33,302 bases of DNA. Source: Myxococcales bacterium. Its GTDB lineage: Bacteria; Myxococcota_A; Polyangia; Polyangiales; JAFGIB01. A program made the position numbers and the translations under genes. The stretch lies in the NCBI GenBank assembly GCA_028817905.1, contig JAPPOR010000903.1, forward strand, positions 1-33,302. The letters run 5' to 3'. The stretch's first letter is position 1, and each line of letters begins with the position of its first letter. Below the pieces are notes generated by a model. The model saw only the letters and a program-made list of their open reading frames with translations, made no database searches and had not been told where the DNA came from. Positions 17,830-21,166 of the stretch are shown here, one piece after another.

Positions 17830-19527
17830 ATGAGCTCCATGGTTCGGTCGGACATCCGTGGTGTGCTGCGCGAGACGTTCGGGTTTGACCTTCGCTCGCT
17901 CGCCCTTCTGCGAGTTGCCCTGGCGGTCATGCTGTTGGTCGACCTCGCGGTGCGCGCCGTGACTCTGACCGAGCACTATACGGACACTGGCGTGTTGCCG
18001 CGCGCGTTGCTGCGCGAGACCTACCTCGACCACCACCCGGGCCGATACAGTTTCCATATGTGGGGGGGGGACCTCTCGTTCCAGGTCTGGCTATTTGTTG
18101 CGGCCGCGTTGTGTGCCCTGCCCCTGCTCGTGGGAACCTTTAGCCGTATCGCCTTGCTCGCTTCGTGGGTGTTGTTGTGCTCAGTGCAGAACCGCAACTT
18201 CATGATCGAGACGGGAGGTGACTACCTGCTGCGCCTCGCCTGCCTGTGGGCACTGTTCTTTCCGTTGGCATCCGTGTGGTCCTGGGACGCGGCCCGCAGG
18301 CGGGGGAAGTTTGTGGCGGGTTCACCGCGGAAGCATCACGCGACGTTCGCGACGTTCGCTTTCTTGGCGCAGCTATCGTGTGTGTATTGGTTCAGCGCCA
18401 TTCACAAGACGCACCGCCAGTGGCGCGTCGACTTCACGGCGGTCCACTACGCCCTGCACATCGACGCCTATGCGACGCCTTTCGGCGTCTGGCTGCGTCA
18501 GTTCCCCGATGTGACGCGAGTGCTGACGATCGTTGTGCTCTGGTTCGAGTATGTGATGCCGTTTTTCGTGTGCGGGTTTGGCCTGTTGTCCATCGTTCCG
18601 GGCTTGGGGGCCATGGCGCGCATTCAGTCGCCCATCCGTACCGTGGCCGTGTTCGCTTTCGTTGTGCTGCACAGCGGTCTTGGGCTTGGACTTTCGCTGG
18701 GAACGTTTCCGTGGTTTGCGGCGGTGATCTGGCTGGGTGTCTTGCCGGGTTGGTTCTGGGACCGGCTGCTTGCGCCCGGCCTTCGCCGCCTGAGGCTTCC
18801 ACGGCTGGCGGATGCGGTTGTGGGTGCGCTCGAGTCGGAAAGCGGCCAGGCTGCTATGGGTTCCGGCGGTGCGGAACCTTCGCCGTCATCGACGTTTGCG
18901 GCGTTCCGGGCCCGGGCTCAGCCGCTGCTGCGAGCGACTCCTGCGGTCCTCGCCGCTGTCCTGCTCTACTACACCGTTGCGATTAATCTTGGAACCGTGA
19001 GTCGTCGTTTCAGGCCCCTGACCCGGGGCTCGGGCTTGACGCTCGTCCCCGATGCGAGCCGGGCCATCGACTTCCTGCGGCTCGACCAACATTGGGGTCT
19101 GTTCGCTCCCTATCCCCGCGTGGTCGACGGCTGGTATGTGCTCCTGGGCACGCAGCTCAGTGGTACCCAGGTGGATCTGCGCGCGCCCGACACTCGCCTG
19201 ACCTGGAAGCGGCCTCGGTACGTTTCCAGCAGTTACCCGACCTTTCGCGTGCGCAAGTACTTTCGGAACATCCGCCGGAAGTACAAGCGCTTCCGACGGC
19301 AACGCTCAGCCTACACAACGTATCTGTGCCGCCATTGGAACGCGCGCCACAGCGGTGACGATCGGATTGAGACGCTGGATCTGATCTTCATGGGCCGCAA
19401 GACGCGCAAGCGCGGCGGGCACAAGGCGCCGAAGCGCAAGACGCTGTGGCATCGGACATGTCCCGATATCGCTTGTGATGGTGACTGTTTCCAGTGGGGG
19501 GAAAACCGCGAGCGGCTCGACCGTTGA
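17830..19527 (+). CDS. HTTM-domain membrane protein (gamma-carboxylase-like)
   Basis: A 565-residue multi-pass protein. Its N-terminal 330 residues match the HTTM domain shared with vitamin K-dependent gamma-carboxylase. They open with LRVALAVMLLVDLAVRA, then have several membrane helices, the loop ETGGDYLLRLACLWALFFP, and YWFSAIHKTHRQWR with a membrane-embedded Lys. A Ser/Ala linker, another membrane segment (about 370-390) and a soluble domain follow, ending in a strongly basic stretch and a Cys-bearing tail (CPDIACDGDCFQW). Bacterial HTTM proteins lack established activity. A nine-G run at 18062-18070 lies in the coding sequence. The gene is divergent from lnt across 69 bases. Confidence 0.88.
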   Translation: MSSMVRSDIRGVLRETFGFDLRSLALLRVALAVMLLVDLAVRAVTLTEHYTDTGVLPRALLRETYLDHHPGRYSFHMWGGDLSFQVWLFVAAALCALPLLVGTFSRIALLASWVLLCSVQNRNFMIETGGDYLLRLACLWALFFPLASVWSWDAARRRGKFVAGSPRKHHATFATFAFLAQLSCVYWFSAIHKTHRQWRVDFTAVHYALHIDAYATPFGVWLRQFPDVTRVLTIVVLWFEYVMPFFVCGFGLLSIVPGLGAMARIQSPIRTVAVFAFVVLHSGLGLGLSLGTFPWFAAVIWLGVLPGWFWDRLLAPGLRRLRLPRLADAVVGALESESGQAAMGSGGAEPSPSSTFAAFRARAQPLLRATPAVLAAVLLYYTVAINLGTVSRRFRPLTRGSGLTLVPDASRAIDFLRLDQHWGLFAPYPRVVDGWYVLLGTQLSGTQVDLRAPDTRLTWKRPRYVSSSYPTFRVRKYFRNIRRKYKRFRRQRSAYTTYLCRHWNARHSGDDRIETLDLIFMGRKTRKRGGHKAPKRKTLWHRTCPDIACDGDCFQWGENRERLDR

Positions 19528-19554: not shown

Positions 19555-20370
19555 CTACTCGACCACGCACCCCAGCGACGTGGCGAGCGTTCCTCGCGTG
19601 GCTTCGAGGGGTTCCTCGCGCGCTGCAGGCAATGCGTGAAACAGATTCAGCCCCGAGCGCGCCTCCACCTCGTTTACGGTGACCAGGTGGTCGCAGATAT
19701 TCGCGTCGCGGGTGGTTTCCTGCTGAAATATGAAGGCGGCGACCCGGAGCACGTCGCCTTGCGCGACGGCCAGCACCTTCCAGTAGCCCGAGGGTACCGC
19801 GTGGCTTTCGTCGGCCTTCGGGAGCATTCCGGCGTTGCCTTCATACAAGGGTCCACTTGTGACGTAGACCGCGTGGGCGCTGGCGCTGCGTGCAAGTGCG
19901 CGCTCGGCGTTTTCCAGCTTGACCCATGCTCCCTGGTTTAGGCTGCTGCTTTGCGGTGTGATGTTCGAGAGATAGTTCGTCTGCGACCAGTGGGGCGTTC
20001 CGGCAAAACTCGCCAGTGGAACCTGGTGCCCCCGGTCGGTCTTGAGTGCCGCGTTGGCGCCCCTGTAGTCGTCGGGCTCGAGGGTTTCATTGGCAGCCAG
20101 CAAGGGGTCCGTTTTCCAGTTCCGAGTATGGGATACGCCGATCGTGTCCCTCGTTACGCGATAGGCCACCCAGTCTGCGAACTTGGTCGCGTCATTGGAG
20201 GACAGCACATAGATTTCGCGGATGATGACGTCGTTCGTGGCGGGCCCGCCCGCTGGGCAGCCGTGAGCGCAGAAGCTGTGATGAATCTCCTGTCCGGTTG
20301 CGAGACCCGAAAACACGCACAGACCGATGACAGCTATGGGGGCGGGGACGGCGCGGCGAAGGCTGAACAT
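19555..20370 (-). CDS. secreted DNA/RNA non-specific endonuclease (NUC1 family)
   Basis: A 271-residue beta-beta-alpha-metal nuclease of the Serratia nuclease/EndoG type, with a Sec signal peptide (about 1-26). The active-site series is intact: Arg113 and His115 in DRGH, Asn136 in SNITPQ, Asn145 in LNQG and Glu153 in KLE. The spacings of 21, 9 and 8 residues equal those between His89, Asn110, Asn119 and Glu127 of Serratia nuclease. It should degrade DNA and RNA outside the cytoplasm with magnesium. The ATG at 20368-20370 follows AGAGGG, which is part of a hairpin (see 20371-20410). The longer frame to 20469 lacks a signal peptide start. No immunity gene is evident. Confidence 0.93.
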   Translation of the reverse strand: MFSLRRAVPAPIAVIGLCVFSGLATGQEIHHSFCAHGCPAGGPATNDVIIREIYVLSSNDATKFADWVAYRVTRDTIGVSHTRNWKTDPLLAANETLEPDDYRGANAALKTDRGHQVPLASFAGTPHWSQTNYLSNITPQSSSLNQGAWVKLENAERALARSASAHAVYVTSGPLYEGNAGMLPKADESHAVPSGYWKVLAVAQGDVLRVAAFIFQQETTRDANICDHLVTVNEVEARSGLNLFHALPAAREEPLEATRGTLATSLGCVVE

Positions 20371-20410
20371 GTCGGACCCTCTTTGCTGTGGTTCAAAGAG
20401 GTAGAGGGTC
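20371..20410 (-). promoter_or_regulatory. RBS-sequestering hairpin in the nuclease leader
   Basis: Read on the minus strand, the leader ends CCUCUUUG-AACCACAG-CAAAGAGG followed by GUCCGAC-AUG. The eight-base perfect stem contains the SD sequence (AAAGAGG). An alternative left arm, GACCCUCU, can pair with AGAGGGUC, again covering the SD. Two competing left arms against one SD arm suggest regulated translation, for example temperature- or ligand-dependent. No known riboswitch class is recognised. Confidence 0.5.
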
Positions 20411-20435
20411 GCGCGCCAAGATTGTGACGCCGATG

Positions 20436-20471
20436 GCCGGGGCAAGCGCCGGGGCAAGCGCCGCCGCAAGT
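20436..20471. repeat. 12-base tandem repeat, three copies
   Basis: The unit GCCGGGGCAAGC occurs twice in a row (20436-20459), and a third copy, GCCGCCGCAAGT, differs at three positions. It lies upstream of the nuclease leader, in the gap between the nuclease and the small secreted protein. It may be only a minisatellite. Confidence 0.6.
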
Positions 20472-20525
20472 CGATGTTGCGGAAACTGTTGGGTTATTGG
20501 GACCGCACGGGGATCCGAACACGAC

Positions 20526-20537
20526 CGTTCATGAACG
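20526..20537. promoter_or_regulatory. 12-base perfect palindrome
   Basis: CGTTCATGAACG is a perfect palindrome within the 211-base gap between the small secreted protein and the nuclease gene. It lies about 155 bases upstream of the nuclease start and could be an operator. A GACCGT/ACGGTC pair (20523-20528 and 20563-20568) partly encloses it. No repressor gene is adjacent. Confidence 0.3.
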
Positions 20538-20581
20538 TTGGTATACGACCCGTTCGGCCAGGACGGTCGGAGTCGCGGCTG

Positions 20582-21166
20582 CTACTTGCGCTTATAGGTC
20601 AGCCGATACGTGATCGGTTGTTGCAGGCGCGGGCTCGTGATGACCACGTCACGATGAAGTGTCTTGCCGTCACTCGCCAGCGTGAAGGTGTTCTTGATCG
20701 CTCCCCTTTCGCCCTCGACCGTTTGGATGACCTTGCCGCCTTTGAAGTCGTGCATGACCTTGGCTTTTCGTCCATCACGCTCCATCGTCTTCGGCTTCCC
20801 CGGCTTGAGCACGATCTTGTCCAAATCCCCGATCTTGAGGCCGATCTGCCCGCCCGGCGTATCGATCCAGACCTTGTCCATGAACTTCTGCCGCGGGTTC
20901 ATGGACATGGCTTTCTTCGCCATCATCTTCATGACCGAGCCGAGTTCTGAGAGGGCCTTGTCGATCGCCTTGTCTATGATGGCCTCTCCATGGGCCTTGT
21001 CCGCCGCGTAGATGTAGTTGCCGGAAAACTTGGTCAAGGCAGCGTCATCTGCACGGACCCGGGGGCAGGGCGTGGCGATTGCGCAGGTGGCTGCGAGTGC
21101 GAGTGCTGCTACCGCCAGCCTCGCGCCGAGTGAACGCTCATTCTTCTTGTACATTTTGGTATGCAT
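20582..21166 (-). CDS. small secreted protein, unknown function
   Basis: A 194-residue protein with a Sec-type signal peptide (Arg/Lys-rich start, hydrophobic core LAVAALALAATCAIA, likely cleavage near residues 32-40). The mature part begins DDAALTKFSGNYIYA, has a Lys/Met-rich helix around residues 60-95, then alternating strand-like segments ending YRLTYKRK. The strand pattern suggests a small beta-barrel such as a lipocalin-like fold, but I cannot assign a family. The ATG at 21166 or the one at 21154 could start it. It lies 65 bases after the dehydrogenase gene and upstream of the nuclease on the same strand. Confidence 0.75.
   Translation of the reverse strand: MHTKMYKKNERSLGARLAVAALALAATCAIATPCPRVRADDAALTKFSGNYIYAADKAHGEAIIDKAIDKALSELGSVMKMMAKKAMSMNPRQKFMDKVWIDTPGGQIGLKIGDLDKIVLKPGKPKTMERDGRKAKVMHDFKGGKVIQTVEGERGAIKNTFTLASDGKTLHRDVVITSPRLQQPITYRLTYKRK

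Follow-up and report, generated by a model that had tools for sequence, protein, structure and literature searches.

A register-degenerate leader hairpin predicted to bury the Shine-Dalgarno sequence of a secreted nuclease gene in a Myxococcales bacterium

The leader of a secreted nuclease gene in a Myxococcales bacterium (contig JAPPOR010000903.1; the window analysed here is positions 1-33,302) contains an inverted repeat that can fold over the Shine-Dalgarno (SD) sequence in several registers. The best explanation, held tentatively and at a little under even confidence, is a static hairpin that attenuates translation, if it is transcribed. On the minus strand the leader reads GACCCTCT-A-CCTCTTTG-AACCACAG-CAAAGAGGGTC-CGAC-ATG. 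Its 11-nt right arm, CAAAGAGGGTC (20375-20385), contains the SD-like GAGGG (20381-20377) and is common to two perfect 8-bp inverted repeats. In register A, positions 20375-20382 pair with left arm 1, GACCCTCT (20403-20410), across 20 nt (−12.2 kcal/mol at 37 °C); in register B, positions 20378-20385 pair with left arm 2, CCTCTTTG (20394-20401), across the 8-nt loop AACCACAG (20386-20393), which lies within the loop of register A (−11.2 kcal/mol at 37 °C). The initial annotation had described two adjacent left segments, each pairing perfectly over eight bases with the SD arm, an AUG four to seven bases beyond the stem, and a hidden SD belonging to a secreted nuclease, and this structural description is borne out: register A pairs the whole GAGGG, register B pairs its GAGG, and the ATG at 20370 lies outside both, 4 nt from the end of A and 7 nt from the end of B. 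Because the 17-nt left segment, GACCCTCTACCTCTTTG, repeats CCTCT, the helix can slide, with the spare left-arm bases bulging out. Intermediate registers C-F have predicted energies of −10.9 to −12.3 kcal/mol, and at 37 °C A, B and C-F differ by no more than about 1.5 kcal/mol; given such near-equal energies, the structure is better regarded as one hairpin with a sliding bulge. In every predicted register the GAGG core is paired, and some left-arm bases are predicted to stay unpaired whichever register forms.

The gene itself (19555-20370, minus strand, ATG start) encodes a DNA/RNA non-specific endonuclease of 271 aa with a signal peptide-like N-terminus, MFSLRRAVPAPIAVIGLCVFSGLATG. It carries the PF01223 domain (E 4e-41 in the domain search), and its best solved match is the Serratia marcescens nuclease (1g8t, E 6e-75, residues 33-268), whose DRGH motif it shares and whose cysteines match its own, four in number. 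With domain, motif, export signal and cysteines all present, it is a secreted nuclease of the Serratia type (PF01223); in this protein-level comparison (1g8t, 1ql0), the two enzymes are alike in the homologous residues 33-268, DRGH, cysteines and signal peptide but come from different bacterial lineages. The reading frame stays open 5′ of the ATG, as far as a TTG at 20469, and the hairpin was considered as a coding part of a longer protein. This was rejected: the 33 codons upstream of the ATG have non-coding scores in all three frames (−6.9 to −8.0; coding windows average +5.5 ± 3.4), and those that follow the ATG have coding scores. The tblastn alignment with a Pseudoalteromonas relative begins at nuclease residue 2. 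Since the upstream frame is non-coding-like and the ATG yields a normal signal peptide, the hairpin sits in a leader and not in coding sequence.

How unusual the masking is was judged against about 396 kb of the same genome, comprising 205 gene leaders whose starts, from a simple gene caller, are approximate. At least one 8-bp stem over the SD zone was found in 4 of the 205, and two such stems in the nuclease leader only; among 3,000 shuffles of the leader, 0.7% had at least one and none had two. Hairpins with dual left arms number two in 0.79 Mb of strand sequence of the genome, the second being a GC-repeat, and arise at 0.25-0.75 per Mb in Markov-generated sequence of like composition. The predicted cost of opening the SD zone at 37 °C is 10.2-11.6 kcal/mol, against a median of 3.5-3.8 for the 205 genes. 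A cost as high as the nuclease gene's is reached in only 2-4 of them, that gene included (the top 1-2%). The SD thus lies in a stable stem, stronger than is typical of this genome. By unpaired probability, averaged over a zone that differs slightly from this one, the leader falls in the lowest 10% of the 205. Overall folding energy, in contrast, is ordinary (z = −1.4), with 165 of the 205 leaders, the nuclease's included, folding at least as stably. The hairpin was picked post hoc, so these rarity figures are somewhat flattering; with that said of its selection, the SD masking is unusually strong for the genome and beyond chance.

The initial annotation went further and read the two pairings as switchable masking. 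The pairings themselves do not support that reading, since both registers bury the same GAGGG and an exchange between them passes from one OFF state to another, with no ON state. Mutually exclusive folds differing in SD exposure, as in a two-state riboswitch, were not found among the predicted registers. In the predicted folds, the two left arms make the masked state redundant and offer no open one. As a mechanism, the SD-holding right arm would pair with the CCTCT-repeating left segment in any of several registers, every one of which would bury GAGGG and leave the AUG free, and initiation on the exported-nuclease gene would likely be low and roughly constant. We infer that both arms are transcribed, that the RNA folds in this way in the cell and that expression is lowered as a result. 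The best promoter-like hexamers on the minus strand (TTGCCC, 16 nt, AATCTT; 20411-20445) are weak and would place the transcript start near 20411, immediately ahead of left arm 1; they are unremarkable, their score being reached by 29% of random 250-nt stretches. Moreover, 119 of the 205 sampled genes have no clear SD, and hence masking one may matter little in this genome. Known SD-sequestering leader hairpins likewise hold the SD in a stable stem with the AUG just outside; the nuclease leader differs in its degenerate left arm, which lets the helix slide, and its effect on translation is putative. Both pairings mask the SD, no opening by heat is predicted and the relatives found do not share the hairpin, so it resembles a fixed brake, or an accident, more than a switch. 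If real, a static brake here would be a further case in which translation of an exported degradative enzyme is damped constitutively, and it would come from a lineage that has been little studied. As a minor curiosity, the stem is register-degenerate, so that two left arms would add robustness to the masked state but provide no switch, and it carries a caution: alternative pairings make a switch only if they differ in what they expose.

The main rival to the static brake is an incidental origin, a serious possibility to which we give about a third of our belief. Here the inverted repeat would be unselected, with slippage in a CCTCT-rich leader having made the second left arm, or with the transcript starting inside the hairpin. 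The relatives of the nuclease favor this view, since the hairpin is absent in six of six (all of them distant, at 45-60% identity, with leaders taken from annotated or best-guess starts), and their SD zones are predicted to be 36-90% unpaired. The ordinary overall folding energy and the occurrence of single 8-bp SD-zone stems in 4 of 205 leaders point the same way, as does a perfect 12-nt tandem duplication, GCCGGGGCAAGC (20436-20459), just 5′ of the hairpin, which is consistent with local slippage but could also be a direct-repeat regulator site. Against an accident stand the rarity of the dual arrangement in random sequence (0.25-0.75 per Mb) and an SD-opening cost in the top 1-2% of genes.

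The relatives themselves are few and scattered. No nuclease homologue was found in six same-family genomes at E 0.001, and searches of 318 genomes from the class and 379 from the phylum gave distant homologues only, or none above the thresholds used. The closest relative found is in a Gemmatimonadetes MAG, at 60% identity; 98 genomes around that one contained no further relative, and neither did viral contigs. Five others, at 45-53%, are plasmid-borne, in Pseudoalteromonas, Vibrio, Nitratidesulfovibrio, Aureibacter and Picosynechococcus. The patchy occurrence of these homologues suggests that the nuclease has spread horizontally. The Nitratidesulfovibrio plasmid copy (L066 1534-2239) adjoins a HipA-family toxin gene and the Picosynechococcus copy (L068 1781-2209) a phosphorothioation-associated methyltransferase gene, which suggests that plasmid-borne relatives are carried near defense genes.

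A regulated translational switch, in which the SD is released when an sRNA, a protein or ribosome standby takes up the left arms, is unlikely. The left segment does hold two copies of CCTCT, both of which a strand-invading partner could bind, and some left-arm bases would be available in every register, being predicted to stay unpaired. But the registers are alike in SD exposure, the leader has no Rfam match and no evident ligand-binding domain, and no second copy of it exists in the genome. The same single-copy status led us to reject a repeat family or regulon built on the hairpin or leader.

Quite improbable as well is that the symmetry acts in DNA, as a 24-bp operator, CCTCTTTG-N8-CAAAGAGG, bound by a dimeric regulator. 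At the DNA level the symmetry is perfect and the nuclease gene begins shortly after the site, but 11.1 Mb contain only two other sites with at most 2 mismatches, which gives no sign of a regulon; an operator serving this single gene is possible. The scanned region holds no intrinsic terminator on the minus strand. Between the nuclease and the gene upstream lies a separate, operator-like 32-bp imperfect palindrome centered on CGTTCATGAACG (20516-20547), whose 21-bp core recurs nowhere else in the genome at up to 3 mismatches.

The initial annotation had also named RNA thermometers, in which warming melts the stem and frees the SD, and we consider this very improbable. The arrangement fits, with the SD buried and the AUG clear of the stem, a layout found in several thermometers, and the ROSE and fourU elements likewise have an SD in a hairpin beside the AUG that is paired at low temperature, as is predicted for the nuclease leader. 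Folding at several temperatures, however, gave no rise in predicted SD accessibility. In a run at 10-90 °C, the SD was predicted to be paired from 10 to 70 °C, with an unpaired probability of about 0.03 up to 70 °C in a 60-nt fold; between 20 and 45 °C that probability changed by −0.007, ranking 36th from the bottom among the 205 leaders. Unlike ROSE elements, the stem is perfectly Watson-Crick, with no destabilizing mismatch or bulge opposite the SD; unlike fourU elements, it has CCCUC/CCUC in place of UUUU as its anti-SD; and unlike either, it has no predicted melting in the physiological range. Thermometers have been described as a balance between stabilizing and destabilizing elements, and perfecting the SD pairing in the Pseudomonas ibpA thermometers abolished expression at both low and high temperature (PMC3669281). 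In a computational study, known thermometers and random mRNAs could not be told apart by the predicted melting of their ribosome-binding sites (PMC2896394), and folding alone is therefore weak evidence either way. A gathering-threshold Rfam scan matched no family, and in the part of the literature covered no secreted nuclease was reported to have a thermometer or a leader that masks its SD. The least credible reading is a sliding fail-safe lock, in which capture of one CCTCT copy lets the other close the SD, and the SD opens only when both are captured at once. If true, this would amount to a two-input AND gate, with a trans-acting RNA or protein as captor and nuclease translation as output.

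Finally, the physiology makes no strong demand for regulation. Nucleases of the Serratia marcescens type are exported by the Sec route, directed by a signal peptide, and need disulfides that form only after they leave the cytoplasm; to our knowledge, they are made without a dedicated inhibitor or immunity gene. The initial annotation had argued that the lack of an evident immunity gene calls for tight control, an argument weakened by this general knowledge of enzymes that are exported without one, and tight translational control of the nuclease may exist but is not a necessity. As for the neighbors, a predicted 562-aa protein (17839-19527, plus strand), with no Pfam or NCBIfam match, is convergent with the nuclease gene. 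Upstream of the nuclease and on the same strand (20582-21154, minus) is a gene for a small protein, likewise matching nothing in Pfam or NCBIfam, that has a signal-like N-terminus of its own.
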